This document shows positions 1 to 27,845 of a stretch of DNA of 33,133 nucleotides, piece after piece. The position numbers were made by a program, and so were the translations under genes. The stretch comes from Deltaproteobacteria bacterium (GTDB lineage Bacteria > Desulfobacterota > QYQD01). Below the pieces are notes generated by a model. That model searched no databases, had not been told where the DNA came from, and saw nothing but the letters and a program-made list of their open reading frames with translations. The stretch spans positions 1 to 33,133 of the forward strand of contig QYQD01000164.1 of the NCBI GenBank assembly GCA_007280345.1, given 5' to 3'. Every line of letters begins with the position of its first letter. Within the stretch, counting starts at the first letter, position 1.

Positions 1-99
1 AACCCTATTGGCAATCCCTATGAAAGTCGTGAGCACGGCGTCAAGGAGCATCGTATCGAAAATCTCTCTGAGTTCGGCAATCGTAACTCGGTTTGCCAT
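1..99 (-). CDS. Partial CDS at window edge, MANRVTIAELREIFDTMLLDAVLTTFIGIANRV..., possibly phage head-tail connector
   Basis: ATG at 99 immediately follows the TAA of the upstream gene (TAAATG); N-terminus style resembles phage gp6-like connector proteins; truncated by window. Confidence 0.45.
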   Translation of the reverse strand, partial: MANRVTIAELREIFDTMLLDAVLTTFIGIANRV

Positions 100-813
100 T
101 TATTTTCTCCGCGCCCGCCATAATTTAGGGTCTACAAAATTAAGAATTTCTGGGTTCCATGATAATCCGAGCCAGGAAATCGCGTCCATAAGTTCCGAGT
201 AATCACCCGCCACCATTTTTTCGGGCCATATCACTTTTACCTGGAGGCCCGTCGTGATCATTTCCACGAATCGTTTTTCATGTTGCCGTACCCACCAAAG
301 CCATCCATCCCGCTCATTATTGACGCCGACCGCTTTCTGAATTTCCTTCCTGGCAAAAGCGCTCATGAACCCGGTTTTTTCGCAACTCGTGGCAATGTCA
401 CCGCTCCGCCGCCTGACTATAACCCACTTTGCCCGGGGGAACGCGTAAGACCACACGGGATGAAAGAGGCACATCTTGGCCCCTTTATAATACCAGGGAC
501 CGCTAATGTATCCTTCTTCCAGCATCACCTGCTCGACCCGGCGCCGCCAGTCCGTAGGGATTGGCAAATTCTCAACGTCTGGAAGCGGGTATTGACCCAG
601 GGGGTCCAGGCCCAGGCTCCGGAGGTAGGGTTTCGTGATCGTGTTGACGATTCGGGCGTTCTCCCACATCCCCTTTGGATTCGCCGAGTTTGGTCCCCGG
701 GTGATGCCACCAAAGGCGCCACAGAGCGATATGCTTCCGGCTATGAGCGAAGTGCCAGACCGTGCACATCCGGTGATAAGGATTGGATCATGTAGCCGCT
801 CAGAATTCATCAT
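100..813 (-). CDS. Sulfotransferase-like P-loop protein
   Basis: N-terminal PILITGCARSGTSLIAGSI (5'-PSB loop-like motif) and a later FPRAKWVIVRRRSGDIATS segment (3'-PB-like). Confidence 0.65.
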   Translation of the reverse strand: MMNSERLHDPILITGCARSGTSLIAGSISLCGAFGGITRGPNSANPKGMWENARIVNTITKPYLRSLGLDPLGQYPLPDVENLPIPTDWRRRVEQVMLEEGYISGPWYYKGAKMCLFHPVWSYAFPRAKWVIVRRRSGDIATSCEKTGFMSAFARKEIQKAVGVNNERDGWLWWVRQHEKRFVEMITTGLQVKVIWPEKMVAGDYSELMDAISWLGLSWNPEILNFVDPKLWRARRK

Positions 814-1168
814 CACCAGGCCTCTCGTAAGTGGTCCCGGGCCACAGGCATCCTCCGGGGAGATAAACCAGCCGACTACCCTCTTGCCATTGCGCCCGCA
901 TCATATTCCGCCATTCGCGCCGGGGTGCCACCGCGGCCACGATAACCACATGCCCCGGCCACTCACCCTCAGCCGCAGCTTCCGCCAGGCCCTGCAAATT
1001 TCTGATCCGGCCGGCGTCGGTAAAGTCCTGGTTGCCGGTCTGGTGCCGGAACATGTCGCCGTCGAGAATCCGCACTATCTTGCCCTCGGACCGGAGTTCC
1101 TGGGCCAGGTGGAAGGCGTGGTGGCTCTTGCCTGATCCGGGACGACCGGTAATGAGCACCACAGACAT
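800..1168 (-). CDS. Adenylylsulfate (APS) kinase-like P-loop kinase, small
   Basis: MSVVLITGRPGSGKSHHAFHLAQEL...VRILDGDMFRHQTGNQDFTDAGRIRNL: Walker A plus LDGDxxR and FxDAxRxxN as in APS kinase (CysC) family; TAATG overlap with upstream gene. Confidence 0.6.
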   Translation of the reverse strand: MSVVLITGRPGSGKSHHAFHLAQELRSEGKIVRILDGDMFRHQTGNQDFTDAGRIRNLQGLAEAAAEGEWPGHVVIVAAVAPRREWRNMMRAQWQEGSRLVYLPGGCLWPGTTYERPGDDEF

Positions 1169-3519
1169 TACCTCCAGGCCTCCTTCACCCACCGATCCCC
1201 CACCTCATGCACCCGGGGACGGCCATGAAAACAGACGATCCGGGCGTCCCGTGGGGGCACACCCTGGCGACATTCCCGCTTATATGAGTAGATGCCGGGG
1301 GCTGCGTCCTGGAGGGCCATGAACGTGCCCCCGTGCGCCTTAAGAGCCGCAGAAATATAAACCTGATCGCCCAGATGGTTGATCTCGGTGGCATTGAATT
1401 TTTCGTAAAGGAAATCATGGGAGCCGTTCTTCCAGGCCATAATCCCGGAGGCGCAGTTGCCCGCCAGCCGGTTTGCTCGATTCCAGGGGCGCAACCCGTA
1501 GAAGTCGCCCCCCAGGGTCAGCAGGTCGTCGATGTTTTTCAGGATGAGGGTGTCCAGGTCAAAATAAAGGACCCGCTCGGTAGACATGGCCCCCGGGCGG
1601 AACAGTTCAATCTTTGACCACCAGCCGGGGTGCCCGTTTGTGAGTCGAATGATTTCCACCCCTTTGATCTTGGGATCATCCGTCAAGCAGACGAACTTGA
1701 ACGGGTGGGTAAGATTCCGGTCCAGTGCCCGCTTCAAGTTCGCGACATACCGCTCATCGAAGTCGCCCCCAGTTTTCAGGACGCAGGCGATGGTGGTGGC
1801 CCGGGCGGGGGCCGGGCGGGTGTCCATCTGGATCTCCGGCGGCGGCAGAAGAGGAGTTTTTCTGACCAACCTTACCTCCGGAGCCGGAATGAACTTGTAA
1901 GGACCGTGCTTGGCCTCATAGAGTGCCTTGTTGCGTTTCCATCGGACCTTCTCGTTAGGTACGATGCAGTGGTCATGCCACTGGTGAGAGACAAGAAGGG
2001 CATCCCTCTGGCTTATGACAACCCCGGCCTTGAGCAAAGATTCCCGGAAATCGTCATCATCGAAGCAAAAGCCCTCGGAAAAGGATTCATCGAAGCCGCC
2101 GGACTGCAAGTATATCTGTTTGTTGAGAGCCGAACAGAAATGATAACGGGCCGGACGAAGTTTGCTGTGCTGAAACCACTGCTCCGGGACCCCCGACAAT
2201 TCTCCATGCTGGCCGATCTTTATTGCATTTCCCGCCGGGGCTTTCCGGCTTTGACATGCACAAACCAGATATTGCTCTGGATCTCCGTCAAAAGCCTTGT
2301 CCAAAGCCGCCAGGATATTTGATTCATGGTAAATTTCCGGGCTCGTCAGGACCACATAGACACCCTTGGCCTCGATCACACCCCGATTAAACAGTTTGGA
2401 GGGACCGTAGCAGTCGTCGGCCTCTTGTACTATCACCCGGATAGGCAAGCCTTGGGTCTGCCATTCGGCCACGACCTGGTGGAGTTCTTCGGGCCGGGCG
2501 CACTTGGAATCCTGGATGATGAGCAACTCCCAATCCTGGCGCCCTTTGTACCAGTATTGATAGCTTAATAGGGTATTATGGAGCAGGATCGGCCGGTCTA
2601 TGTAGGGCATAATAATGGAATATTCCACACCCTTGCCCTCTTTATAGGGACCGATGAATCCAGCTTCTGCCATGGCCCATTTGAGGCCGCTGCTCCGGGA
2701 ATCTTTTTGCACATCAGCGAAGCTTTGCCAGGAAGCTTCCGGCAGGGAAGATAGGCGATTACCTGCAAACCAGTGGATGCCAATGGTATGGGCTCGTACA
2801 TCCAAACGTTGCCGGTCAAGCCAAATGGCCAGCATCTGGTGGCGCACCGACCGGAAGGGGTAGACGGCATGTTGCGGAATCTGCCCGACTATGCTATTTC
2901 CCGCTTCTTTGACCCCGGGGGGGGCGAATTTGACAAGGAGATGTGTTCCTAAGCCCTGATAATCGGTCATGGGTTTGTTGACCATCTCCAGGCCCACCCG
3001 CTCCATTTCCCGGTAGAGATTACACCCCGGCGTACCCCCAAGAAAACCGATAGCCTGCCAGTGCTTAAGTTCTTGTGTCTCTCCCCAGCAAAGGAGGGCA
3101 TCGGCAGTCAAATTTACCGTAAGAGCCGACATGGGCCGAAAATAAAGGATATCAAAATCAGACCAGAAGCCTCCCATGGTATGCAACAGTCGCCAGCGCA
3201 AGAGATCGGAGCGGTGTACCTCCGTCATGCCTGCTGGAAAATCGTCTATGGGAGCCTCCCGAACCTCCACATTGGGGCCGGCTTCAGACAACCGCTTGAA
3301 CCAATCCTCGCCTTGCCAGGCGTAGTGGGCATGTTCCCCGGTGCGCCAGGTGGCCTGGGCACCAGAGTTCTTGGGATACCAGACGATCACCCGCCAGTCT
3401 GGATTGAGCCGGGCGAAGGTATATGCCGTCAACCAACGCAGCCAGGAGAGGGGTTTGTCTTTGCCCCAATACAAATGGAGTACGCGGGGTATGGTCGCCG
3501 GTGATATCAATTTATCCAT
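1168..3519 (-). CDS. Multidomain glycosyltransferase (783 aa; three GT-A-like segments)
   Basis: N-term GGFWSDFDILYFRPM (DXD sugar-binding region), middle GT2-like YSIIMPYIDRPILLHNTLLSYQYW, C-term VLYFDLDTLILKNIDDLL (DXD). Confidence 0.75.
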   Translation of the reverse strand: MDKLISPATIPRVLHLYWGKDKPLSWLRWLTAYTFARLNPDWRVIVWYPKNSGAQATWRTGEHAHYAWQGEDWFKRLSEAGPNVEVREAPIDDFPAGMTEVHRSDLLRWRLLHTMGGFWSDFDILYFRPMSALTVNLTADALLCWGETQELKHWQAIGFLGGTPGCNLYREMERVGLEMVNKPMTDYQGLGTHLLVKFAPPGVKEAGNSIVGQIPQHAVYPFRSVRHQMLAIWLDRQRLDVRAHTIGIHWFAGNRLSSLPEASWQSFADVQKDSRSSGLKWAMAEAGFIGPYKEGKGVEYSIIMPYIDRPILLHNTLLSYQYWYKGRQDWELLIIQDSKCARPEELHQVVAEWQTQGLPIRVIVQEADDCYGPSKLFNRGVIEAKGVYVVLTSPEIYHESNILAALDKAFDGDPEQYLVCACQSRKAPAGNAIKIGQHGELSGVPEQWFQHSKLRPARYHFCSALNKQIYLQSGGFDESFSEGFCFDDDDFRESLLKAGVVISQRDALLVSHQWHDHCIVPNEKVRWKRNKALYEAKHGPYKFIPAPEVRLVRKTPLLPPPEIQMDTRPAPARATTIACVLKTGGDFDERYVANLKRALDRNLTHPFKFVCLTDDPKIKGVEIIRLTNGHPGWWSKIELFRPGAMSTERVLYFDLDTLILKNIDDLLTLGGDFYGLRPWNRANRLAGNCASGIMAWKNGSHDFLYEKFNATEINHLGDQVYISAALKAHGGTFMALQDAAPGIYSYKRECRQGVPPRDARIVCFHGRPRVHEVGDRWVKEAWR

Positions 3520-4205
3520 CCTCCGAAACCGCTAGTGCATGGTTCCCGTTCCAGGGCTGGGGTCCAGTTTTCGATTATCTGGGAAACTGGCCGATCCTCC
3601 TGTCGGTAGGTAGTGGGCTTGAAATAAATCACTTTGGCACCAATATAATCCTCAATCCGAATAAGCGTTTCATCCCATCTGTTACACAAATCTTCATAGG
3701 TGACGGTTAGGGCTTCCGGAAAGACCTTCTGTAAAACCGCTTGGGTGTCGCGATGCTCCTCCAAGGCCACATGAAAGTCGTCGATATCAAATTTAACCGG
3801 GGGGTTGCTAATCTGATGGGGTTTGGAGACGTCGAAATCAAGCCGGGAGAAGGCCACACAGCTTGACAGATAGCGGTGTAACTGGTTTTCCCGGTTCAAG
3901 ATCACCGTCCGGGGCGGGAAAAAGGCGGCTATGGCCTGCCAGAAGCCTTCCGGCTCCAAATCAAAATTTTCCCGGATATGGGGCGCGCACCATTGATGGG
4001 TACAAGTCCCCCGGATTCGCTTATCCTGTTCTTTCGGAGTCATTTCCCTAAAATTGGCAAGTTGGCTGATTCCCTCACCCTTAAGGCCGTCCCACTGTTC
4101 CATGACCACTTCCGGGTGGGCTTGCAGGGCCGCCAATAGCATCTGCGTCCCGGAGCGCATTTGGGTGATCATCAAAAACCGGCTACGTTGTTTGGCATTA
4201 TTCAT
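3507..4205 (-). CDS. Sulfotransferase-like protein
   Basis: SRFLMITQMRSGTQMLLAALQAHPEVVMEQWDG: sulfotransferase-type P-loop; LTVTYEDLCNRWDETLIRIEDYIG near C-terminus. Confidence 0.7.
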   Translation of the reverse strand: MNNAKQRSRFLMITQMRSGTQMLLAALQAHPEVVMEQWDGLKGEGISQLANFREMTPKEQDKRIRGTCTHQWCAPHIRENFDLEPEGFWQAIAAFFPPRTVILNRENQLHRYLSSCVAFSRLDFDVSKPHQISNPPVKFDIDDFHVALEEHRDTQAVLQKVFPEALTVTYEDLCNRWDETLIRIEDYIGAKVIYFKPTTYRQEDRPVSQIIENWTPALEREPCTSGFGGWIN

Positions 4206-4702
4206 TATCTCAACCGATAGCCGAAGAAGCATTCCCGGGTAGAGGGTAGGATAACCCGGGCCCAGGATTCGTCAAATTCATCATAGGTCCACAAGCTGCG
4301 GTGCAAGATATTCTCATTTTGATAATAAAAACCCTGTGTATCCTCAAAACAGGTACGGTTGTCATCCCATTTCATGGGCGTCAAGGACACCACAGCCCTC
4401 TGAGCAAGCCTGACTGCTTGGCCTAAGATTTCTAAACTCCGGTGCTTATCAAGATGCTCCAAGACATCTAGGAGCAGAATAATGTCAAATTCCCGGTCTA
4501 GTGGTAAGTCGCTATCGTTTAGGTCTAATAGGTAGTCGGGTTTCGCCTTGGCCCAAGAGTCCAGGGAAAACACCTGTGCCGCGCCGATATTCTGATAGCG
4601 TCGGTCGCCGCTGCCCACATCCAACACCACGTCTGTCGGCAAGGCAAAATTCTGGAGCCATTTCAGTATATGCGGTTCGGGTGGATATTGGGTTTTGACC
4701 AT
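4205..4702 (-). CDS. Class I SAM-dependent methyltransferase
   Basis: DVVLDVGSGDRRYQNIGA (motif I) and FDIILLLDVLEHLDKHRSLEIL; TGATG overlap with upstream gene. Confidence 0.75.
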   Translation of the reverse strand: MVKTQYPPEPHILKWLQNFALPTDVVLDVGSGDRRYQNIGAAQVFSLDSWAKAKPDYLLDLNDSDLPLDREFDIILLLDVLEHLDKHRSLEILGQAVRLAQRAVVSLTPMKWDDNRTCFEDTQGFYYQNENILHRSLWTYDEFDESWARVILPSTRECFFGYRLR

Positions 4703-5664
4703 CAAACAAACTCCGCGTGGCTCAGGGGCATCGTGAGCAGATCCAGGGCCGAGTTGTAGTCATCGTAATAACACCGGACGCACCGGGAGCCATCGAAGGG
4801 GGTCTGCTCTCCCCATATTCGGTCAATGTCTTCCAGGGAACCCATGCGCATGCTCTCGACGTAATCGAGCCCCGGGGGGTCCTGGGCATATTGAACGCCG
4901 CAACATGGGTAAATACCGCCGCCTGCCGATACAACCGGCTTGATGAGGCTGATCAGGCACCGCTCGGCCCCCATGACAAAGGTGGCCCGGTCCTGATAGA
5001 TGACTTTGCTGTCGTCGATGCCTGCCCCCAGGAGATGCGCCCGTGCGACATTCATTCTGAGGGCTGACTTTTCGATATCCAGAAGGTCGCCAACGATCCG
5101 CACATGGGTAAAATTATGCTCATTGGCGAAGATAACCAGCCGCCCAAGCACGTCCCAATCAGGTTTCCTGGTCAGCACGTGGGAAAAGGCCCAATCTATT
5201 CCAGGCCCCGATTGCACGGCGTTCATTATCCCGGCCCATTCCGGCTCCCGATCATCGCTTGAGGAAATCCGGCACCAGGTGACATTTTTGTAACTGGAAA
5301 ACTTGCTGAATTGCGTCCCGTTGGTCACAAGGCCCACCTGGATTTGCAGGCCGTGAAGGATTTTAATGAGAGCGTTGATGTCGGGGTGCAGTAGGGGTTC
5401 CCCGCCGCCGGTGATCGTGACAGACTGGCAACCGAGCTTCTGAAAATTGGCCATGACCCGGAGTAATTTCTCTAAATCGAGTTCGGCCTTGCGGTCCCTT
5501 TCAGAGCAAGAGCAAAACCCGCACTTGAGGTTGCACCGATTTGTGGGATTCAACTGGACGTGCTGGGGGGGAATATAGCCAGCCCGGATGCGATTTATCA
5601 CAAAGGCGTTCTGCAATAATTTGACCGGCAGGGTGCTGGCCGCGGTGTAGCTTCTTAGAGTCAT
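4702..5664 (-). CDS. Radical SAM protein with C-terminal Cys-rich (SPASM-like) region
   Basis: CNLKCGFC (CxxxCxxC) and TITGGGEPLLHPD; C-terminal CLI...YPCCG...CVRCYYDDY. Start reassigned from ORF start 5823 to ATG 5664 (TTATGACTC overlap). Confidence 0.8.
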   Translation of the reverse strand: MTLRSYTAASTLPVKLLQNAFVINRIRAGYIPPQHVQLNPTNRCNLKCGFCSCSERDRKAELDLEKLLRVMANFQKLGCQSVTITGGGEPLLHPDINALIKILHGLQIQVGLVTNGTQFSKFSSYKNVTWCRISSSDDREPEWAGIMNAVQSGPGIDWAFSHVLTRKPDWDVLGRLVIFANEHNFTHVRIVGDLLDIEKSALRMNVARAHLLGAGIDDSKVIYQDRATFVMGAERCLISLIKPVVSAGGGIYPCCGVQYAQDPPGLDYVESMRMGSLEDIDRIWGEQTPFDGSRCVRCYYDDYNSALDLLTMPLSHAEFV

Positions 5665-5789
5665 AACTGAGCCCCATAAATCCCGCTGGCGAGGACTTTT
5701 ACCAGAACTTGACCTACCCCAAGGGATGGGGTTTCGAGTTCGGCTACCGTGAGCGGGGCACCTAATTCTGTTAGGATGGCGGCTTTCAT
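5661..5789 (-). CDS. 42 aa micro-ORF resembling the N-terminus of zinc-type medium-chain alcohol dehydrogenases (MKAAILTELGAPLTVAELETPSLGVGQVLVKVLASGIYGAQL)
   Basis: ORF below the supplied 60 aa cut-off; ATGA overlap at both ends with neighbouring genes; clear GroES-like MKAA.L...PL.V.E.E.P.LG.GQVLVKV.ASGI.G pattern. Confidence 0.65.
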   Translation of the reverse strand: MKAAILTELGAPLTVAELETPSLGVGQVLVKVLASGIYGAQL

Positions 5790-6223
5790 TTCCCAAGCAC
5801 CTTATGGGCACCTTCTTCAACATCCACCTTGCTCACCGCCTCTACATCAGCAGCCGCCTTTATCTCTACCTTGGCTTCGGTCAGTTTGGTGAGCCACTTT
5901 AACAGAGGCAGGGCAGTGGCCTCTAGCTTATCCATGATCGTATTGGGGCCACCATAGAGAGCTACCTGGTTTAGTACATAAGCCTTGTAACGGGTAACCA
6001 CTTCTTTCTCGGTGATCGCCCCAGATAAGATGCCCATCCCCAGCAACATGGACTTATTGACATCCGCAGCGATATCATACAGATCCCCGACATTCTCCGA
6101 ATCCAGCAAGCGCCGCAACTTGATCTTCAGGTAATGGGTCCGGGCAAGGGCTTCCTTTTCGGTTTCGGTTTCCGATCCTGTCAGAGTTTTGCCGTAGATT
6201 GAGAGTTGGTCTTCAAAGGTCAT
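5786..6223 (-). CDS. Hypothetical protein immediately downstream of the DGR RT
   Basis: ATGA overlap with RT stop; 145 aa, no family recognised. Confidence 0.7.
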   Translation of the reverse strand: MTFEDQLSIYGKTLTGSETETEKEALARTHYLKIKLRRLLDSENVGDLYDIAADVNKSMLLGMGILSGAITEKEVVTRYKAYVLNQVALYGGPNTIMDKLEATALPLLKWLTKLTEAKVEIKAAADVEAVSKVDVEEGAHKVLGK

Positions 6224-7224
6224 GTCGTCGCCTCCTGCAATTTTTTGTAGGTCCTGGGAAGTTTTATGGACTGGGGAGCGGCCTTTATTAGGCGCAGAAG
6301 ATGGGGCAGCGAGTCGGTACCCTTGGCGTGCCCCAAAAGCGATACCACCGCTTGCTGGTCCCCGGACTTCAATCTCCGGCTAAATTTATAGAGACTGTAT
6401 TTGCGGATGATCCGCCTGGTTTTCCAGGTGTGGTAGCCGACAAAATTGACCCCCCGCTTGATCCTCTGGATGGTGGACTTGGATAATTCCAGGTGCAGCT
6501 TGGTTTTCAAATACTCCACGATCAAGCCCCGATAGGCCAGTGCCTGTTCCCGGCTGAGACCGATGAGCACCATATCGTCCACGTAGCGCACATAGTGCCG
6601 CACCTTCAAAACCCGCTTAATGAAATGGTCCACCGGGTTGAGATAGATCAAAGCGTAAAGCTGGCTCAAAAGGTTGCCGATGGGGATGCCCAGGGGATCG
6701 CCGGTGTCGGCAAAAAGCATCATCGCGTCCACCAGGCGCCGATCCTTAATCTTGCCCTCGATCAACCCCCGGAGGATTTGCCGGTCTATGGAATAAAAGA
6801 ACTTCCGCACGTCGAGCTTCAAGATGTAAGCATCGTTACCATAATGCCTGAGGGCTTTTTGGGTGTAATCGCTGGCCTTGTGCGTCCCATACCCATTCCG
6901 GCAGGCAAAGGAGGTGGAAATAAAGGTCCGGTCGAAAATCGGATAGATCACCCGGTAAATTGCGTGCTGCAGCACGATATCCCGGAAGGCCGGTGCATAG
7001 ATTACTCGAGGCTTGGGCTCGTAAACCATGAACTTGAAATAAGGCTGCGGCTGGTAACTGCCGGCGTGGACTTCTTCGTAGAGGGCCGCCAGGTTGCTTC
7101 CCAGGTTGATCTCGAACTCAAAGCAGGCCCGCTTGCCCCGTTTACCTCGCCGGGCGTCGAGATAAGCATGGTACAGGTTGCTCTTGCTGAAAGCCCGTTC
7201 GAACAAATTGCCGAATCGTTTCAT
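6220..7224 (-). CDS. DGR reverse transcriptase
   Basis: MKRFGNLFERAFSKSNLYHAYLDARRGKR start typical of DGR RTs, GIPIGNLLSQLYA, RYVDDMVLIG (YxDD). Start reassigned to ATG 7224 because the ORF upstream of it is the TR. Confidence 0.95.
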   Translation of the reverse strand: MKRFGNLFERAFSKSNLYHAYLDARRGKRGKRACFEFEINLGSNLAALYEEVHAGSYQPQPYFKFMVYEPKPRVIYAPAFRDIVLQHAIYRVIYPIFDRTFISTSFACRNGYGTHKASDYTQKALRHYGNDAYILKLDVRKFFYSIDRQILRGLIEGKIKDRRLVDAMMLFADTGDPLGIPIGNLLSQLYALIYLNPVDHFIKRVLKVRHYVRYVDDMVLIGLSREQALAYRGLIVEYLKTKLHLELSKSTIQRIKRGVNFVGYHTWKTRRIIRKYSLYKFSRRLKSGDQQAVVSLLGHAKGTDSLPHLLRLIKAAPQSIKLPRTYKKLQEATT

Positions 7225-7345
7225 AAAGTCCTTCTGATTTTCGGATTGAATCCTACCAAAAAGAAGGTTTCTCCTGATTTCGCCTAAGGCTGGATAACCT
7301 ATCCCTGTTCTTCCACTATCCGCAAGAGCACGGTTCGAGGAAATG

Positions 7346-7459
7346 CAGTCCGCCTGCCACCCCACATTGTTGTTCGAGTTCGTCCGATTGTTGTTCCAAT
7401 TCAGATACCAGACTCCCGCATTGGACGTGTTGTTCCAATACGCACAGGAGAGGGGACAT
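7346..7459 (-). repeat. DGR template repeat (TR)
   Basis: Gapless alignment to 7920-8033 (offset 574); 17 of 19 mismatches at TR adenines (coding strand); AAC/AAT-rich. Confidence 0.95.
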
Positions 7460-7480
7460 GTTAATAGGTTACCCATAAGC

Positions 7481-7885
7481 TCAGTTCCAGCGGTTATCGT
7501 CTTTGATCTTTTTGATCCAGCCGCCGATCATCTTGCCGATCTCATCAACCAGGACGGTGATGGCCTGGTAGCGATTAGCCTCCCGCTCCAGAAAGTGCTC
7601 GTCTTCCTGTTTTCCGTCCTTGAACCGGAAATACCCCAATTCATAAGCCAGATAGAGCTGCATCCGCAACTTCTCGTGGGTTATGTCCAGGTTGGTTAAG
7701 GTGGTTTTCTTGAGATAGCGCTTCTCCCCTTCGGTGATGAGGTCAAAGATTCCATAGGCTGTGTTTCTGATTATGTTGGCTAAAGCGTATTTCTCATGTT
7801 TCGGAAAATGGTTAAGGTAAATATTCAATAACTTCAAAAACTCCGCCAATTTGCGATAAAGCCGTGGCTCGCTGTGTATCCCCAT
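7481..7885 (-). CDS. avd: DGR accessory variability determinant (Avd), four-helix-bundle protein
   Basis: RLYRKLAEFLKLLNIYLNHFPKHEKYALANIIRNTAYGIFDLITEGEK...; located between target gene and TR/RT as in classical DGRs. Confidence 0.85.
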   Translation of the reverse strand: MGIHSEPRLYRKLAEFLKLLNIYLNHFPKHEKYALANIIRNTAYGIFDLITEGEKRYLKKTTLTNLDITHEKLRMQLYLAYELGYFRFKDGKQEDEHFLEREANRYQAITVLVDEIGKMIGGWIKKIKDDNRWN

Positions 7886-7906
7886 CACCGCCTCGTTATC
7901 ACTCGG

Positions 7907-9580
7907 CTACACAGGGTAACAGGCCGCCCGCCACCCCCCATTGGAGTACGAGTTCGTCCGATCGCAGTACCAATGCAGAGACCAGACCCCCGCAAGGGAC
8001 GCGTCGTACCAATACGCACCGGAGAGGGGACAAAGTTCGTTCCGAATATATTGATAAAAAGAATCTTTGCCGAACAGGTTATCGCCACCGGTGCTTAAAC
8101 CAGTGACGGCAAAGGGCAGGCCCAGGCCGGCCAGGAGGTACTCAGCGCCGCTGACGTCCTCGGCTAACACCTGGTTAAAGGCGTTGCCATACCGTTGGGC
8201 GAAAGCCCCACCAGCGGATGTGACGAATACCGGAACGAAAGCGTCCATCATGGCCGCCACCCCTTCAGCCCCCCAATGGTCGGTAGTAATGCCCCCTGGT
8301 CCAGCATTGTTTCCAGAGGTAAAGTCCTTCATGGCCGTGGCTTCTTTGGCGGCGTAGAAGGTGCCCTTAGTGGCAGTGCCCCCACTAACCCATGCCCCCG
8401 TCGCTGTGGTATTTGCCCCGGTTAGAGAGAAAGTGTCGTCGTTAATCTTAAGAATCGTGTAGATTTTGTCGTTCAGCACCGTCATAGGGGCCGCAACTGA
8501 GACGATTTGTATGAGGTTACCATTAACATAGCCATGCCCTGCAATAGTTACTACCGCAGGATTGGCTTCGGAGATTCCGGTAATATTTTTGGTTGCGGCG
8601 ACGCACGTCATTCCCAAGGATATCTCATACATCAGACCGTTGAGGTCGGAGATGCCGCACTCCTGGCCGTTGTGGGTGGTTTTAGCAAACGGAAATCCGC
8701 TCCCGGCCTTGCCGCAGTTACTATAACCGTCAGTCAGGTAGACCACCGTGGTGTCGTCAGTGTCCCGAAGGGCATTGTTGTTGCAGCCCTTGGGGTAATT
8801 CTTGGCCCCGGTCCAGTCGTACCAGGCACACCACGCCTCACATTTGGCAGCCTGCCCGTGGGCCAATTGTAGTAACCCCAGTGCCGCCCGCTGGAACTGA
8901 CTGGTGGCGAAAAAGATGCTGTTGGCGTTCCCTGCTCCATCCACCCCGTCCCGAGCATGGGCAGCCTTAATGCACTCGGAGTAATTATTTGCGATGCAGG
9001 CTGTTAAACCAACTCCGGGGGTGGCAGAGTACATGGGGTTGTGGGCAGAATGGGTGCTGAGGGGCAGGCCATTCTTGACGCTGGCCCCAACATAACCGGA
9101 CCCCTTGGCGACCTTGGAAACCTGGTACTTGTCGAAGAAAAACCCAGACTTCTCCGCTCCGCCGTCAATGAAAGCCCGGTGCAGGGCGTAACCCGCAGCA
9201 TTGGCTGCCGCAGTGTTAGCATAGGCACTGGCGGGTTTGACGTCCACCCAGTTCACCGGAAACCCATTGGCCCCGGTGCCGATTTTGTAAAAAAACTTGG
9301 GTATCCAGCACATCACCGATCCTTCGGAGTACTGGTAATTGCCATAGTTGGGTGCCGTTGAATCGGTATAGCCGGTCAGGAGCGTCATGCCGGAGGGCAA
9401 ATCGGCCGCCGGACAAATCCCGACTGCGAACCCCGGACCCCCGGCGATGCCAATATCGTTCACCGGGGCCGGAAAGGTTTGGAGATAGCGCCTGCTTCCG
9501 TCTGACCCCAGAACATAGTAGCCTTGGCCGTCAAAATTAACTCCCCCATTCCCTCGGCTATTAACAGTTGATGGTCTCAT
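7907..9580 (-). CDS. DGR target (variable) protein, C-type-lectin/FGE-like fold, probable receptor-binding protein
   Basis: C-terminus CPLSGAYWYDASLAGVWSLHWYCDRTNSYSNGGWRAACYPV carries the VR; upstream domain GSVMCWIPKFFYKI...GFFFDKYQVSK... Confidence 0.9.
   Translation of the reverse strand: MRPSTVNSRGNGGVNFDGQGYYVLGSDGSRRYLQTFPAPVNDIGIAGGPGFAVGICPAADLPSGMTLLTGYTDSTAPNYGNYQYSEGSVMCWIPKFFYKIGTGANGFPVNWVDVKPASAYANTAAANAAGYALHRAFIDGGAEKSGFFFDKYQVSKVAKGSGYVGASVKNGLPLSTHSAHNPMYSATPGVGLTACIANNYSECIKAAHARDGVDGAGNANSIFFATSQFQRAALGLLQLAHGQAAKCEAWCAWYDWTGAKNYPKGCNNNALRDTDDTTVVYLTDGYSNCGKAGSGFPFAKTTHNGQECGISDLNGLMYEISLGMTCVAATKNITGISEANPAVVTIAGHGYVNGNLIQIVSVAAPMTVLNDKIYTILKINDDTFSLTGANTTATGAWVSGGTATKGTFYAAKEATAMKDFTSGNNAGPGGITTDHWGAEGVAAMMDAFVPVFVTSAGGAFAQRYGNAFNQVLAEDVSGAEYLLAGLGLPFAVTGLSTGGDNLFGKDSFYQYIRNELCPLSGAYWYDASLAGVWSLHWYCDRTNSYSNGGWRAACYPV
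7920..8033 (-). repeat. DGR variable repeat (VR)
   Basis: See TR; G/C-rich 3' end of VR (GGGGGGTGGCGGGCGGCCTG on minus strand) is IMH-like. Confidence 0.93.
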
Positions 9581-9584
9581 AGCT

Positions 9585-10247
9585 CTACTCCCCCACCCCG
9601 AAGATTAGTTGCAGACAGTCGGCTGTAAAGGTCGCCCCGCTGGGGGTTACAATCAAGGCGTATAGGTTCCGCCCTGCTGCCGCTTCAACCGGCATGTCAA
9701 ATGCCAAGTCAACCAGCGATGCGTGAGTCATCTCCTTCCAATCGCTGCTTTGGATTTCAATAGTCCCGATCCACTTCAACCAATCGATGGCACTCACGGC
9801 CTCGGCGGCGTCATCAGCATAGGTCCCAGCGAGGTCAGTCCCGAAGATAAAAACCAGCAGATCGGCATTTTGCTTGGCAGCGTCCACCACCTTGAGGCTG
9901 GTGATTTTGCCCTTGCCGGTAGCAACCCTGACCGCATTGGTGATGGTCAACTTACCACCCACCACATCATCAACTGCATGGGCTGTGGCGGCAACAGTGG
10001 GGGTGATGGTGATGAGGTCTGACCATTTACTGGTTTCACCGATGTGGGCTTCGCCGGCGGCGATAGTCGCTATTACCGAACTACCATCCACTACCCACCC
10101 GGAGGCCCCATAAATATAAGGTATCCCGCTGGCCTCATCAAAATATTTGGACCCGTATTCCGCCGTAGATGGACGATCCGCCAAAGCACCACTCCAATGA
10201 CTGATGTGGGCTCCGACGGTGTTTAACAATACTTTAGCCATGGTCAT
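9585..10247 (-). CDS. Phage structural/hypothetical protein
   Basis: ORF with ATGA overlap to upstream gene; position after head genes, just upstream of DGR target. Confidence 0.6.
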   Translation of the reverse strand: MTMAKVLLNTVGAHISHWSGALADRPSTAEYGSKYFDEASGIPYIYGASGWVVDGSSVIATIAAGEAHIGETSKWSDLITITPTVAATAHAVDDVVGGKLTITNAVRVATGKGKITSLKVVDAAKQNADLLVFIFGTDLAGTYADDAAEAVSAIDWLKWIGTIEIQSSDWKEMTHASLVDLAFDMPVEAAAGRNLYALIVTPSGATFTADCLQLIFGVGE

Positions 10248-10966
10248 ATTCTCCCTTCAAGGACTTCGGATAATTGCACTTTAGGAAATGAGGTAATGGC
10301 GCTTTCAGGGTTTGCGTTCAAGAATTCCACCCCGAGTCTTGCCGCATCCTCTGCGATTGCCGGGAAGCCCTTCAAATGCCGCGCAAAGGGAGGTGGCTTC
10401 TTATTACCATGGGACCCGTGCCAGTGACTCACTTTGCCATCGTCCAGGCACATGTCGAAACCGAGTAAGATGATCTTCTTGACGCCGAAATGCACCGCTA
10501 GGCTGATCGCCGCGGCACCGGAGTTATGATTCCAGGCTACCTTGGAGGGATTTGTACTGAGGCCGTACTGTTTTGAGTCGTTGCCGACAATGCCCCTGCC
10601 GCCGCCCTTGGCCAGATACTTGATCCCCTCGCAATCCCTCTCCGGCTTATTGGCAAAACGTGGGCAGCAGGTTATTTTGAGGTTGCGGAACTTGGCCAGG
10701 GCCATCCGGTGCACTAGATACCAGCCGCAGTCGCCAAAAAAGACACAATCCAGCCATGAACCGATCTGGTAGGCGTTGTTGACGCCGATGATATGGGCGC
10801 CATGGATAGGGGCCAGGTAGGGCGAGTAGGTGGAGGGGGGAAGTGCGCCGGTCATCACCTTGCTCACCACGTCCTCCGGAACCCCGAATTGCCGGGGCAT
10901 TGATGGACCACCACCAATTATGAAGCAACTCCCACCGCTCCACATGGGAGGGGCGGTCCAGATCAC
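10244..10966 (-). CDS. DUF115/MptE-like Rossmann-fold phage protein
   Basis: GGSCFIIGGGPSM...GAHIIGVNNAYQIGSWLDCVFFGDCGWY...KKIILLGFDMC. Confidence 0.55.
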   Translation of the reverse strand: MIWTAPPMWSGGSCFIIGGGPSMPRQFGVPEDVVSKVMTGALPPSTYSPYLAPIHGAHIIGVNNAYQIGSWLDCVFFGDCGWYLVHRMALAKFRNLKITCCPRFANKPERDCEGIKYLAKGGGRGIVGNDSKQYGLSTNPSKVAWNHNSGAAAISLAVHFGVKKIILLGFDMCLDDGKVSHWHGSHGNKKPPPFARHLKGFPAIAEDAARLGVEFLNANPESAITSFPKVQLSEVLEGRI

Positions 10967-11271
10967 TTGCCCAGGTCCCCAAGCAGCTTCTGAGCGTCCG
11001 CCTGCCGCAAGGCACCCTCATTCACCACCTTGCCGTGAGCATCCACCACGTCGTACCAGCCGGGGCCCCGGGACATGATGCTGTAGCCCCCAGGGGCAAC
11101 TTCAAGCGCCGGTTCCTCGGGGACAGGAGTCATCGGGACAATTAAATCCCGGAAGGCCTTGGGGATTTCTTCCTCGGTGGCTTCAAAAACCTGGTTCGGC
11201 TTGATTATCCGACCACTGACCATCCGGAAAGATTTGTTACTGAGTAACTTCCATTGGCGTTTTTCGCTCAT
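10963..11271 (-). CDS. Hypothetical phage protein
   Basis: MSEKRQWKLLSNKSFRMVSGRIIKPNQ...; start reassigned from 11430 to 11271 (11280 possible) because upstream part overlaps the capsid gene. Confidence 0.55.
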   Translation of the reverse strand: MSEKRQWKLLSNKSFRMVSGRIIKPNQVFEATEEEIPKAFRDLIVPMTPVPEEPALEVAPGGYSIMSRGPGWYDVVDAHGKVVNEGALRQADAQKLLGDLGK

Positions 11272-11318
11272 GGTAGTCATCCTTTCAAAAGATGGGAGCC
11301 TGATTAGCTCCATCCGGT

Positions 11319-12431
11319 TTAGATGCTGTAGTGGACCAGTCCACAGCGACCGTTGTAATCGCTCCGGATCTGGGGCACGTCCAGGGTGATGACCTTGAAC
11401 TTGTTGATCAGGAAACCCTCTTCCTTCCACTGGATGGTCTGAAGGGGGAGGCCCCGCACCAGGCGCACCGTCTCCGGCCGCATTTCCACCAGGAGGACGT
11501 TATTGGTCGCCAGGGTGTCAGCTACCTTGACCGATGTGATCCCTTCGATTGCCAGGATGCGCTGACGAACCGTGCGAGCCGAGGTGCCGGCGTCGTCATC
11601 GTAGTCCTGGTCCATCACGGTCTCATAGGTGGCCGGAATGTAGAGAACCCATGGCCCGAAATGCAGGTCATCGAGGCTCTTTTGCTTCATGGCGATGACA
11701 TCGGCGATGATCTGAGCCGCGGTCGCAGAGGTCCAGGCCGCAGTTAGGGAGTCGATGTTCCGGTCCGGGAAGTTGACGTAGGAGTAAATGGAGTTGCGGA
11801 GGTTGGTGTCCTTTTCCCCGTAGGCGTAGGTGATGTCGGTGAACAACATCTGCTCCCGGAGCAGGGTTACGGCCCGGGCCGCCTCTTCGGCTTCGGAAAC
11901 ATCCGCGCCTCGGTTGTTCAGGCGCGAGGTCTGGAGGAACCGCTCGTTGATTTCGAAATCCACATGCAGGAGCGGCAGGGGCATATAATGGTGTTTGTAG
12001 TCCACCCGGTCGCCCTGGCTGCGGTTGACGCCGTCCATGCTGATGGTGGCCTGATGAGCCTGGCTGCGGGTGTGCCATTCCAGGACGGTCGAGGCCATGC
12101 CGTTGCCGATGTTCATCACGCAGTTGTTGTCGATCAAGTCCTGCACGCCGGTGAGCCGGATGGTGGCCGCGGTTTGGACGGCCTGCTCCAACTGTTTCCA
12201 TTCATCCCGACGCAAGGTAGCGTTGGCCTGAATGGGGACGGTATTCCGTTTATAGGATTCTTTCTTTTTGGGGTCACCGCCCACATAGGTAGCGATGGTC
12301 ACATAGGACCGGCCATCACTACCAACAAAGGGGCGCATGAGGCCGGGAGTGAGTCGACCTTCCTTGGCAATCATGCTGGCCAGGGCGCCTTGAGGACCAT
12401 TCGGCCCGAGGAAATCAACATTGACGTTCAT
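11319..12431 (-). CDS. Major capsid protein
   Basis: 370 aa, position after protease/scaffold and decoration genes; C-term FKVITLDVPQIRSDYNGRCGLVHYSI; AGGAGAG ribosome-binding site. Confidence 0.75.
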   Translation of the reverse strand: MNVNVDFLGPNGPQGALASMIAKEGRLTPGLMRPFVGSDGRSYVTIATYVGGDPKKKESYKRNTVPIQANATLRRDEWKQLEQAVQTAATIRLTGVQDLIDNNCVMNIGNGMASTVLEWHTRSQAHQATISMDGVNRSQGDRVDYKHHYMPLPLLHVDFEINERFLQTSRLNNRGADVSEAEEAARAVTLLREQMLFTDITYAYGEKDTNLRNSIYSYVNFPDRNIDSLTAAWTSATAAQIIADVIAMKQKSLDDLHFGPWVLYIPATYETVMDQDYDDDAGTSARTVRQRILAIEGITSVKVADTLATNNVLLVEMRPETVRLVRGLPLQTIQWKEEGFLINKFKVITLDVPQIRSDYNGRCGLVHYSI

Positions 12432-23721: not shown

Positions 23722-23910
23722 TCACGCCTCCTTGACCTTATTGTGGGGTTCATCGCCAGACGATTGAAACATCAAATCTCCAACGGCCTCAGCTACAGAA
23801 TTTCCAAAACCCGCCGGAGATTCCTGGAGGTTGATAAAATCTTCGTGGTAGACGGCGCACCACTTGTTGCCGTCCACAAAAACCCGGATAATCATTTCGG
23901 AATCCATCAC
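23722..23910 (-). CDS. Hypothetical protein
   Basis: 62 aa ORF in operon context, GTG or ATG start overlapping upstream stop. Confidence 0.55.
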   Translation of the reverse strand: MMDSEMIIRVFVDGNKWCAVYHEDFINLQESPAGFGNSVAEAVGDLMFQSSGDEPHNKVKEA

Positions 23911-24512
23911 CCCTCCTTAACTTTTGACCTTTCTCGGTACATGACTTTGTAGGCTTTCACTGCCTCCGGTTTATCCTGTCGTCGTTGCTTGCAGGCTTGG
24001 ATATTGCAATCCCGATGATAATTTTTCGCGGAACCCATCTTCAGGTTTTGAGGATCATCGTATTTCCCGCAAATATGGCATAAGCGCCAGGACGCCTGAC
24101 CGCAAGCCTTCAATGCCCGCATCCGCATGTGTATCAATTTGTGGTAGTTGCGATCTTGGCAAACCACCAAATTAGAGGGAAGGTTGTTGGCCCGGTTTTC
24201 ATCAACGTGATGAGGTATGGCCTCCGGAGGCAAGGGTTTTCCCAAAGCCTTTTCCGCCACAAGGATGTGCTCACGAACATAACCCTGAGAATCAGCCCTG
24301 GGATGGTCCGGCATTGAAATCAAAACGTAGCCGTCATTTTTGCGTTTTACCCCGCCATTCCACTTGGGATTATTGCTCCCTGTTGAGCTGTGTCCTTGAA
24401 TGAATCTGACCGGTTTGCCTTTGATTCGACCATATTTCTTATGGTTTTTCTTGGGGATAGTGGTTAGCCTACCGCATCCGCATTGACATAAACCCTCGGG
24501 TATTTTATCCAT
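23907..24512 (-). CDS. HNH endonuclease (copy 1)
   Basis: GLCQCGCGRLT..., HILVAEKALGKPLPPEAIPHHVDENRANNLPSNLVVCQDRNYHKLIH, C-terminal CHICGKYDDPQNL. Confidence 0.85.
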   Translation of the reverse strand: MDKIPEGLCQCGCGRLTTIPKKNHKKYGRIKGKPVRFIQGHSSTGSNNPKWNGGVKRKNDGYVLISMPDHPRADSQGYVREHILVAEKALGKPLPPEAIPHHVDENRANNLPSNLVVCQDRNYHKLIHMRMRALKACGQASWRLCHICGKYDDPQNLKMGSAKNYHRDCNIQACKQRRQDKPEAVKAYKVMYRERSKVKEG

Positions 24513-24522
24513 TGTCTTCCTC

Positions 24523-25650
24523 TTAGGTGGACTTATGGAATCCCACTTTTTCAACAGTTTTGGCTTGGTATTGACCCAAGATTCCATCCAGAAGTTCTTT
24601 CCTTTTGAGCTTTTTCAAGCCTCTGTCTAAAGAGGTTTTAGTTAAACTCAACATCGGCCATACTTGGGATGGTTCAACCCCCTGGGCCAGTAGATCGTTA
24701 ACAACCTGTTCGGGGTCAAGATCATAAGAGACGCTGGATGAGGGGCCATAAATTACGTTACCTACAGTGATTGATCCATACTCCGTAACCCATGCCTTGA
24801 GATGGTTTTTAATCGCCTTCCCCATTTCTTCAATCGCCAGGAGCAGGGTCGCCGCTTTCACTGCGTCCTCGTGATTTACCGGATAAAGGACGTTGGCCGG
24901 CACGAGCGCCTGGGCCATGACCGGGCAATGGGATGTGACCCCGCACCAGCCGCAGAACGATCCGGGAGTCGGGTCAAAATACTTCTCGGCTTCGATGATG
25001 GCGATTTTGGCTTCCAGTTCTGCCGGCACGGTGTCCAGGTCGCCGGGGGTCAAGAGGATTTCACGTTCCGCTCCATATCTCAGAAAATGGAGTTGCAGCA
25101 AGATTTCTTGAGCGTCCGGGTAACGAGTCCGCCTGGCACCCCAGCCGTAGATACGAAGTTGTAAGGGAATGTGCTCCGGGTCGATTTCGATGACCGCACG
25201 ATTAGATTTCCAATCTTTTATGACCGCCAGGCCACCTTGCAAGAAAGTGAAATCGAGCACCATCCGGAAAAAGACTTCGGGGGCATGATACTCGCAGGGC
25301 TCCCAGGCGCGGTTAAAAGCAAGCTGCAGTTCTACTCCGGGGTTCTCTACCGGCGGCAGGATGAAATTCTCGTAGGCCCGCGGCCAGACCTCCAGCACAT
25401 CCGCGGGGGCCTCCTTGGGGGTGATCTGCTGGGCCCAGGCCCAATCGGTTTGCAGGCCTTGAGAAATGAGCCGATTAAGATACTTGGCCGCCAACTCATG
25501 AAGCATCTGGCCGATGAGCAGGGGTTCCGCGGTGACCCGGGGGATTTTGTCGATGCGGATGAGTTTAAAGGCGAACGGGCAGCCGCCGTGAGCGTCGCCG
25601 CCATGGAACATCTCCAAAGCTGAGTGAGAATAACTCGCCTGTTTAGCCAT
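24523..25650 (-). CDS. Cas4/RecB-like PD-(D/E)XK nuclease with Fe-S-type cysteines
   Basis: SHSALEMFHGGDAHGGCPFAFKL, VLDFTFLQGGLAVIKDWKSNR, SFCGWCGVTSHCPV. Confidence 0.75.
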   Translation of the reverse strand: MAKQASYSHSALEMFHGGDAHGGCPFAFKLIRIDKIPRVTAEPLLIGQMLHELAAKYLNRLISQGLQTDWAWAQQITPKEAPADVLEVWPRAYENFILPPVENPGVELQLAFNRAWEPCEYHAPEVFFRMVLDFTFLQGGLAVIKDWKSNRAVIEIDPEHIPLQLRIYGWGARRTRYPDAQEILLQLHFLRYGAEREILLTPGDLDTVPAELEAKIAIIEAEKYFDPTPGSFCGWCGVTSHCPVMAQALVPANVLYPVNHEDAVKAATLLLAIEEMGKAIKNHLKAWVTEYGSITVGNVIYGPSSSVSYDLDPEQVVNDLLAQGVEPSQVWPMLSLTKTSLDRGLKKLKRKELLDGILGQYQAKTVEKVGFHKST

Positions 25651-26227
25651 GCCGAATGTCCTCCAAGTTCTTATTCTTTTTAAGTTGATATCTTTCTTTA
25701 TCGTATTGGGTTTTGCATGACTTATGGCACATATTCCTGTTTCCACCATTTACCAAATTCAGGGGGTCATCATATTGTTTACAGAAAGAACATTTTCTCC
25801 AATTAACATAACCGCACTCTTTAAGTGCCTTTTCCCTGGAATGCAGTAAATTGTGGTAGGTTTGATCTTGGCAAACTACGAAATTCTCAGGAGAATTGTC
25901 CGATTTATCATGATTAACATGGTGGATGACCGCAGATAAAGGTAACAACTTCCCAAGAATTTTTTCTACAATTAAATATGGTTCGCCGACATACCCAATT
26001 TTAGTGGCCCTGGGGTGATCAGGGGCAAATACCATAACGTAGCCATGGTTATCTGTTCTTCCGCCTTTCCAAAGTACACTTAATGGACCCTTGCCAAAGT
26101 GATAGTGGCCCGCGATAAATTTTAATGGCTGCCCCTTTATCCAGCCTTTATTCTTGTCGCTTTGGCGAGCCAACTTTGTCTCACCCCCGCACCCGCACTG
26201 GCAAAGTCCTTTAGGAATTTCTGACAT
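25643..26227 (-). CDS. HNH endonuclease (copy 2, paralogue of 23907..24512)
   Basis: GLCQCGCGGET..., YLIVEKILGKLLPLSAVIHHVNHDKSDNSPENFVVCQDQTYHNLLH, CSFCKQYDDPLNL; ATG 26227 with GGAGG. Confidence 0.85.
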   Translation of the reverse strand: MSEIPKGLCQCGCGGETKLARQSDKNKGWIKGQPLKFIAGHYHFGKGPLSVLWKGGRTDNHGYVMVFAPDHPRATKIGYVGEPYLIVEKILGKLLPLSAVIHHVNHDKSDNSPENFVVCQDQTYHNLLHSREKALKECGYVNWRKCSFCKQYDDPLNLVNGGNRNMCHKSCKTQYDKERYQLKKNKNLEDIRHG

Positions 26228-26238
26228 GGCAATCCTCC

Positions 26239-26311
26239 AAAAAGAAAAACCCGAGAGTTGTCTAGCCGCGCAACACGGCCCCAGGGCCTCGCGGACACCT
26301 GGACTCTCGGG
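26239..26311 (-). terminator. Large structured hairpin ending in TTTTTCTTTTT, directly upstream of HNH copy 2
   Basis: Perfect 9 bp arms cccgagagt (26250-26258)/actctcggg (26303-26311). Confidence 0.6.
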
Positions 26312-26384
26312 ATACTTATTGGTGGATAGATAAAACAAGCCCATTGACGGGGGGCCTCCCGGCTGCGCGAATTTAGACAAATTC

Positions 26385-26414
26385 ATAGTATTTCCTTCCT
26401 GGAGATATGTCAAG
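26385..26414 (-). promoter_or_regulatory. Candidate sigma70 promoter
   Basis: TTGACA (26414-26409) - 18 nt - TACTAT (26390-26385). Confidence 0.5.
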
Positions 26415-26429
26415 TAGTTTCGCATGATC

Positions 26430-27845
26430 TTAAAAGAGTGACTTCCTCGCCTGCCCCTCGTTGCCCTTGGGAGGCGGGGGAGGAGGCGGCGGATCAGCCA
26501 ACCGCTCCTTGCCCTCCTGGACCTCTGCCGCCGCGGTGACTTTGAGCACAATCCCGGCCTCATTGAAGGCTTTCTCAATTACCCCTACCGTGAGACCCTG
26601 GGCCACTTCCGCCAGGTTGTCCACCAGATCAAGGACCACCTGCATTTCACCCCCCAGGGTCGGCCCCCAATCCAGCCACCGGCCGATGGGCACGCCTTTG
26701 GTGGTCACCAGATCGATGGGCAGGTCAACCATGCCGTCCGGTTCCTTGGCCAACTCCATGAGGGCCGGAAGGGTGATCGCCATTGCCGGGGAACCGGCCC
26801 CCTGCTCCCCTCCGTTTCCGGGGCCCTGGCTTTGCGTCCCTGCCGCTGCTGTGGGTTCCGGGGCCGGGGCGGGGGATTGGGTAGCAGAAGCCTTTTTCTT
26901 GCCACCAGCGGCCTTAGGCGAAGCCGTTCCTTCGGCTTCGGGGTCCGGGTAGAACTCCGCCGCGGTTTCGGCTTGTTCCGGGGCCGGTTCCAGGTGCGGA
27001 AGCAATAGGAGCTTTCGAGCCTCTACCTCTACCGTGTCCATCTTCACCCGGCGCTCGATGCGCCTCAGGGCAATTTCGTAACCGATCTCGGCCAACTGCT
27101 GTTCCGGGCCGCGGAACTCGATGGAGACGATGAACGCCACCATGCTCTTGCCGTCCGGGGTCGTAACCGTCTTGGGCGAGAGCACCAGCGTCAAGGGGAT
27201 TCCGGCCAGGGGGCCACCCGTCAAGGTTTTGATGAGGGCCAAACTGGAAAGGATGGCATTGACGGTATTCCAGGAGGTCGTCCGGAACTTCCAGACGCCG
27301 CCCACCCGGTCAACCCCTTCGATGAGGGCCTGTAGGGTGCCTAAGGGTTTGCACCGCGGCTGCCCTTTGTAATCCGCCGCCAGGCGCTCACAGGGGCAAG
27401 TCACCATACCGTATTCATTGGGGCCAGGTTTGCGCTCCTGTAGTTTGTCAGAGTCAAAAGGTTCCCCTGTAGCCACTCCGGGGACAAAATAAATTACTCC
27501 TTCCCCGAATCTTTGCGCTTCCTCGCCGTCCCCGGAGCACCAGCACCGGGAGCCCTGATAAGCGGAGTAGCGGGTCATAAAGTTGAGGTCAATGTCATCG
27601 TAGAGCAGCCGCACAGGGAGTTCTACCAGCTTGGTACCGCCCGGGTTGACCATTTTCATCAGGGCGTCGTCCGCCATAAACCGGCCGGCCGCGTCCCGCT
27701 GCATGGTGGTAATGACAAAGTGGTCATACTTCACCGGGAGCCGGTAGGTTTCATTGCTCCCCTGTTTCTTCCGTTCATCCCCCAGGCCGCCGATCTTGAT
27801 CTTGCCGCGTTCGGCCAGTTGGGGGGTTAATCCTTTGATCGCCAT
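26430..27845 (-). CDS. Recombination directionality factor-like phage protein (phiC31 Gp3-like)
   Basis: IKIGGLGDERKKQGSNETYRLPVKYDHFVITTMQRDAAGRFMADDALM...LPVRLLYDDIDLNFMTRYSAYQGSRCWCSGDGEEAQRF. Confidence 0.7.
   Translation of the reverse strand: MAIKGLTPQLAERGKIKIGGLGDERKKQGSNETYRLPVKYDHFVITTMQRDAAGRFMADDALMKMVNPGGTKLVELPVRLLYDDIDLNFMTRYSAYQGSRCWCSGDGEEAQRFGEGVIYFVPGVATGEPFDSDKLQERKPGPNEYGMVTCPCERLAADYKGQPRCKPLGTLQALIEGVDRVGGVWKFRTTSWNTVNAILSSLALIKTLTGGPLAGIPLTLVLSPKTVTTPDGKSMVAFIVSIEFRGPEQQLAEIGYEIALRRIERRVKMDTVEVEARKLLLLPHLEPAPEQAETAAEFYPDPEAEGTASPKAAGGKKKASATQSPAPAPEPTAAAGTQSQGPGNGGEQGAGSPAMAITLPALMELAKEPDGMVDLPIDLVTTKGVPIGRWLDWGPTLGGEMQVVLDLVDNLAEVAQGLTVGVIEKAFNEAGIVLKVTAAAEVQEGKERLADPPPPPPPPKGNEGQARKSLF

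Follow-up and report, generated by a model that had tools for sequence, protein, structure and literature searches.

Does the run of genes in which a diversity-generating retroelement (DGR) is followed by radical SAM, methyltransferase, glycosyltransferase, kinase and sulfotransferase genes encode one phage system, or have separate modules come to lie side by side? The question is raised by a stretch of DNA of 33,133 nucleotides, hereafter the window, which is one contig (C20) of a genome bin of 2.43 Mb in 223 contigs. Taken as a whole, the locus is probably best explained as an ordinary phage DGR beside a hotspot of glycan and sulfation cargo genes in the head operon, the products of which would act on a virion acceptor.

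The retroelement in the late operon

On the minus strand, the late genes of the window run from terminase through portal, head morphogenesis, a phrog_760 protein, decoration protein and major capsid protein (MCP) into the DGR and sulfation region. A preceding reading made from the sequence alone had named the genes from the DGR target to the last sulfotransferase; all of them were found among the open reading frames (ORFs), on the minus strand and in the order proposed. The features from the capsid gene through the retroelement are as follows (L numbers denote related loci).

11319..12431, minus strand: MCP, the upstream landmark (phrog_771, E 3e-19)
10963..11430, minus strand: u155, a small conserved protein between MCP and cassette, in the equivalent position in about 26 relatives; its true start is probably inside this ORF
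9585..10247, minus strand: gp220, before the DGR target in the window and in L003 (62% over residues 67-220 to the DGR neighbour in L003)
7907..9580, minus strand: DGR target protein with the variable repeat at its C terminus (phrog_20912, phrog_2889, phrog_584 tail)
7920..8032, minus strand: variable repeat (VR)
7481..7888, minus strand: Avd (bAvd Pfam, E 1.8e-16; phrog_3206, E 1.9e-22)
7346..7458, minus strand: template repeat (TR), contained in the open RT frame
6220..7476, minus strand: DGR reverse transcriptase (RT) ORF (RVT_1, E 6e-15; phrog_1423, E 6e-111; IGNLLSQ and YVDD motifs)
5786..6223, minus strand: u145, accessory protein of this DGR group, found after the RT in L003-L007 and L013 (34-65% identity)

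The DGR in the window is genuine: a DGR-type RT and the accessory Avd accompany a VR/TR pair whose differences are concentrated at adenines. VR and TR are identical at 94 of 113 positions, and 17 of the 19 differences fall at TR adenines, the other two being T to G; adenines occupy 29 of the 113 TR positions (binomial P = 8.9e-9 for the adenine bias). The TR lies within the open RT frame in the window (7346-7476). Since it falls outside the RT frame in L013 and L014, translation of the RT probably starts at an ATG near 7227, as judged from this comparison. We propose that the unit gp220-target-Avd-TR-RT-u145 would use adenine-specific mutagenic retrohoming to diversify the C terminus of the target, which is probably a receptor-binding or tail protein. 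The order target-Avd-TR-RT and the adenine-specific VR/TR differences are those of BPP-1-type DGRs (mtd-avd-TR-brt), and the RT shares 35% identity with BPP-1 Brt over 82%; unlike those elements, the DGR of the window has the conserved extra u145 after the RT and is inserted in a glycan cargo hotspot of a head operon. As a side observation, the RT match in L011 and L012 (G029 and G030) contains five in-frame TAG codons and one TGA, so that these loci possibly belong to phages with reassigned stop codons or carry a decayed RT gene.

The cassette with and without the retroelement

The remaining features bracket the retroelement on both sides.

10244..10966, minus strand: sialT, CstII/Maf-like sugar transferase and upstream bracket of the cassette (phrog_4603, E 2.5e-33; AlphaFold2 pLDDT 92)
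5661..5789, minus strand: zinc alcohol/sugar dehydrogenase (ADH) remnant of 42 aa; L063, L065 and L066 have an ADH after sialT, whose first 43 residues it matches at 63%
4702..5664, minus strand: radical SAM protein (rSAM) with SPASM/twitch-like C-terminal cysteines (Radical_SAM, E 5e-16)
4205..4702, minus strand: SAM methyltransferase (weak Methyltransf_23, E 0.007; MftM, E 6e-6)
3507..4205, minus strand: ST2, a second sulfotransferase-like protein (Sulfotransfer_3, E 6e-5)
1168..3519, minus strand: multi-domain glycosyltransferase (Gly_transf_sug, E 1e-6; EpsD-like middle, E 1.4e-4; phrog_1962 at the C terminus, E 5e-31)
800..1168, minus strand: short APS-kinase-like protein (APS_kinase, E 1.4e-17, profile positions 3-102 of 152)
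100..813, minus strand: ST1, sulfotransferase and downstream bracket of the cassette
1..99, minus strand: beginning of the gene after ST1 (conn), truncated where the contig ends; 100% to L050

The overlapping junctions pointed out in the sequence-only reading are real. After an 18-nt gap between target and Avd and a 4-nt gap between Avd and the RT ORF, 4-nt ATGA overlaps join RT to u145, u145 to the ADH fragment and the fragment to rSAM. The junctions then read TGATG (rSAM to methyltransferase) and TAATG (methyltransferase to ST2, and glycosyltransferase to kinase); ST2 overlaps the glycosyltransferase gene by 13 nt, the kinase gene overlaps ST1, and the ATG of conn follows directly on the TAA of ST1. 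Such tight overlaps are often seen in the late operons of phages and, taken alone, do not establish a shared function. With conn the operon leaves the contig, so that the window ends within the first gene after ST1 and the connector and tail block is absent from the window itself. Full-length conn matches phrog_37884; in relatives, genes for neck/connector and major tail proteins come next. The window may contain a chimeric join; its end from the glycosyltransferase through kinase and ST1 to conn is matched independently, at 100%, by L050. Elsewhere in the window, two related HNH endonuclease genes (23907-24587 and 25643-26578) lie on either side of an exonuclease gene.

Scans of IMG/VR with RT, rSAM, ST1 and kinase as queries place the region in a wider pattern. 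Gene strings built from profiles follow the layout MCP-u155-sialT-[0 to 12 cargo genes]-ST1-connector region. After identical ST1 ends had been dropped, 30 distinct cassettes from sialT to ST1 remained, a few close relatives still among them; the MCP lies upstream in 23 of the 30, and a connector-region gene lies downstream in 22, followed by neck, connector and major tail genes. Among the cargo are rSAM, additional sulfotransferases, glycosyltransferases and methyltransferases, as well as zinc ADH, SDR, GT11, NDP-sugar epimerase and half of a transketolase. Minimal forms consist of sialT and ST1 alone (L058 and L093) or of ST1 without sialT (L088). Our best reading is that the region is a widespread glycan cargo hotspot with the major capsid gene on one side and the head-tail connector genes on the other, bracketed by sialT and ST1 and filled with exchangeable enzymes; it looks undescribed. 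The genes that the earlier reading assigned to the cassette stand, and the extent of the cassette needs correction: its first gene is sialT, missed in that reading and located upstream of the DGR, and it runs on into the connector genes at the contig end. GIY-YIG homing-endonuclease-like ORFs in or beside cassettes (L078 5464-6099, L079 10746-11381, L080-L082 and L017 7701-8537) are a possible route for cargo exchange. In L035 (15169-16942) and L051, a sialT-ST1 pair follows the connector-region gene, and L035 also has a first sialT upstream.

Beyond the viral contigs, the ST1 profile found three loci in GTDB genomes. One of them is a prophage-like head gene block of Euryhalocaulis caribicus, a named isolate, in which the sialT-ST1 pair (L093, 9402-10618) lies between head morphogenesis and protease-like genes. 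Among 50,697 records of cultured phages, tblastn with ST1 and kinase gave no match, and rSAM gave weak matches only, in five records.

Against this background, the proposal of the sequence-only reading that DGR and sulfation genes form one coupled system can be judged. Such a system, in which the cassette would sulfate or glycosylate the DGR target or its receptor and both would be selected together, accords with the shared strand, the tight overlaps and a presumably single transcript. Close relatives in which the cassette is unlinked to any DGR, which that reading had itself named as grounds for giving the idea up, do exist: only the cassette of the window contains a DGR, and the other 29 of the 30 distinct cassettes have none. 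No RT was found in 24 cassette contigs of 12-137 kb searched with the RT protein and PF00078, searches in which DGR contigs were positive; as many viral contigs are fragmentary, this is no proof of RT absence elsewhere in those genomes, and RT absence inside complete cassettes is direct. Conversely, none of the nine DGR contigs searched contained an ST1 match, in a search run without a positive control, though the same ST1 protein recovers 43 loci in the IMG/VR scan. As a general rule, then, the coupled system is already refuted, and we consider it very improbable for this locus as well. The scan for DGR loci covered close DGR relatives, and a rare second pairing may occur among other DGR loci.

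That the DGR and the cassette are two independent modules side by side is a history we regard as well supported and hold with high confidence; their pairing is probably a one-off and does not make one machine. In the closest cassette relative, L017 (rSAM 77%, ST1 71% and MCP 54% identity), rSAM overlaps sialT directly through an ATGA and there is no DGR. In L063, L065 and L066, a full-length zinc ADH follows sialT, at the place where the window has the DGR and the remnant; the ADH-like fragment of the sequence-only reading is thus present, but as the 42-aa remnant of a gene that these relatives keep whole. The DGR module for its part occurs in unrelated phages at other sites: L003 has gp220-like, target, Avd, RT and u145 genes after a terminase-like gene, and L005 has the module in another context. 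The simplest history is apparently that a DGR module was inserted into the hotspot, at the ATGA gene junction between sialT and the dehydrogenase gene, and that most of the ADH was lost at this insertion, with 42 codons left. We found no paper on a DGR together with a sulfotransferase in the openly licensed literature.

The putative sulfation enzymes

ST1 has a confident sulfotransferase fold and is predicted to transfer sulfate from PAPS. The AlphaFold2 model, built from 29 relatives, has a pLDDT of 92.8, and its 36 best Foldseek matches in the PDB, of which protein-tyrosine sulfotransferase 2 is the first, are sulfotransferases without exception (best E 9e-6). R17-S18 (ARSGTS) and R134...S142, which we take to be the 5' and 3' phosphate-binding motifs, are invariant in 29 sequences. 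ST1 shares its fold and these motif residues with TPST and bacterial STF enzymes but is less than 20% identical to them. The enzyme identities proposed earlier mostly hold: the ST1 fold is borne out by structure prediction, ST2 scores 23.8 bits against Sulfotransfer_3, below the gathering cut-off of 27, and the kinase is APS-kinase-like without the canonical lid. As for the other enzymes, sialT has a GT42/Maf transferase fold (Foldseek best CstII 1ro8, E 2e-5; Maf glycosyltransferase 5mu5, E 1.5e-4), and rSAM is a radical SAM/SPASM protein in which CxxxCxxC and the C-terminal cysteines of CCGVQY...CxxCYY type are invariant in 21 sequences.

The best PDB relatives of the kinase are APS kinases, with which its first two thirds align (E 2e-19). 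In comparison with E. coli CysC, it retains the P-loop, DGDxxR, DR, P and ER positions. Unlike CysC, the phage kinase is only about 125 aa long, and the region of the CysC lid (about residues 131-163, DPKGLYKKAR...FTGI) is missing from every one of the 38 distinct phage sequences in the alignment with the E. coli enzyme; the positions of CysC Y166, E167 and P169 are kept, and a conserved PGG-LW-G motif replaces the lid. Because the canonical lid is missing, we class the protein as APS-kinase-like and not as an APS kinase.

APS kinase makes PAPS, the donor for sulfotransferases. In the scan with the kinase as query, the kinase adjoins ST1, in either order, in 28 of 38 distinct loci, two others being at contig ends and eight elsewhere. 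This adjacency supports a putative PAPS-sulfotransferase pair and, with it, the link between kinase and sulfotransferase drawn in the earlier reading. In L121, one of the eight, the kinase is followed by another sulfotransferase-like ORF, as judged by motifs. Alternatively, the protein could be another kinase of the superfamily, acting on a sugar or other small molecule, which would leave the cassette without PAPS synthesis of its own. The missing lid with its conserved replacement, the members that sit apart from sulfotransferases and the two full-length APS kinases encoded in the genome bin itself all fit this alternative; the closest solved structures, the retained positions and the adjacency to ST1 argue against it, and on balance we find it rather unlikely. 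The substrate of the family may vary and not be APS alone. Short APS-kinase-like genes were also seen beside deaminase-like genes in L122, L125 and L129, where no sulfotransferase was detected.

The acceptor and known counterparts

We suggest a plausible working of the hotspot. The kinase would convert APS to PAPS, and ST1 and ST2 would use it to sulfate a glycan placed on a virion component that is made simultaneously from the same operon, while the methyltransferase, the radical SAM enzyme and the glycosyltransferase would build or modify the same glycan. Gene content, folds, conservation, placement and adjacency are what we observed, and from them we infer PAPS synthesis and the sulfation of a glycan or protein. 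Our best guess for the acceptor, tentative as it is, is a glycan or protein of the virion. In a simple hydropathy scan, no multi-pass membrane protein or glycan-export protein was found among 217 cassette ORFs, and only five had even one strongly hydrophobic segment; we therefore lean to a cytoplasmic or virion acceptor, and to the virion also because of the position in the late operon and because ST1 and sialT have fold neighbours that act on proteins, Maf enzymes being known to act on flagellin. These fold relationships are remote (TM about 0.5), and the acceptor cannot be read from them.

Two other acceptors have to be weighed. Were the cassette to remodel the LPS or capsule of the host surface, as a means of blocking superinfection for instance, its cargo would make sense, since GT11, NDP-sugar epimerase, ADH, the transketolase half, SDR and the EpsD-like glycosyltransferase resemble bacterial surface-glycan genes. 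The position among late head genes and the lack of a flippase or membrane glucosyltransferase, in keeping with the scarcity of hydrophobic segments, make this unlikely. Hypermodification of phage DNA bases with sugar and sulfate, shielding the genome from restriction, is more improbable still: passages in PMC10829341 (for Iyer 2013) and PMC12619734 (for Pyle 2024) connect glycosyl- and sulfotransferases of phages with the modification of nucleotides and DNA, but a thymidylate synthase/hydroxymethylase family member was present in just one of 11 cassette contigs tested, and the position in the head operon also speaks against it.

For the virion acceptor that we prefer, the nearest experimental precedent is the glycosylation of mycobacteriophage virions, in which capsid and tail-tube proteins carry glycans (Freeman et al. 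2023, as described in passages of PMC12691614 and PMC12619734). Those are different phages, the passages concerned mention no sulfation, and for the hotspot a virion acceptor is presumed.

Should the hotspot work in this way, phages would supply PAPS themselves and use a sulfotransferase of their own to put sulfated glycans on virions. Sulfotransferase and APS-kinase genes that are otherwise listed as auxiliary metabolism would then have a concrete role. We know of no report of phages that sulfate virion glycans in this way, and found none in the openly licensed literature for virions decorated by means of such a pair. The DGR insertion would further mean that a single genomic slot takes two kinds of surface-variation cargo. 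In its broadest form, the idea is that a widespread lineage of uncultured phages makes virions with phage-specific sulfated glycans by means of its own sulfotransferase and lid-less APS kinase, both encoded in the head operon, the intervening genes being swapped like a serotype cassette and DGRs entering the slot too; this is conceivable, and we regard it as somewhat doubtful.

A partial counterpart is found in the Caulobacter phage CcrColossus: there, a sialT homologue (30%) overlaps the gene of a tail protein, and behind it lie sugar-transferase, methyltransferase and GT9 genes. It differs in having no annotated sulfotransferase or APS kinase and in lying on the tail side, not the head side. 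CcrColossus, with its sialT homologue and sugar genes near tail genes, is culturable.
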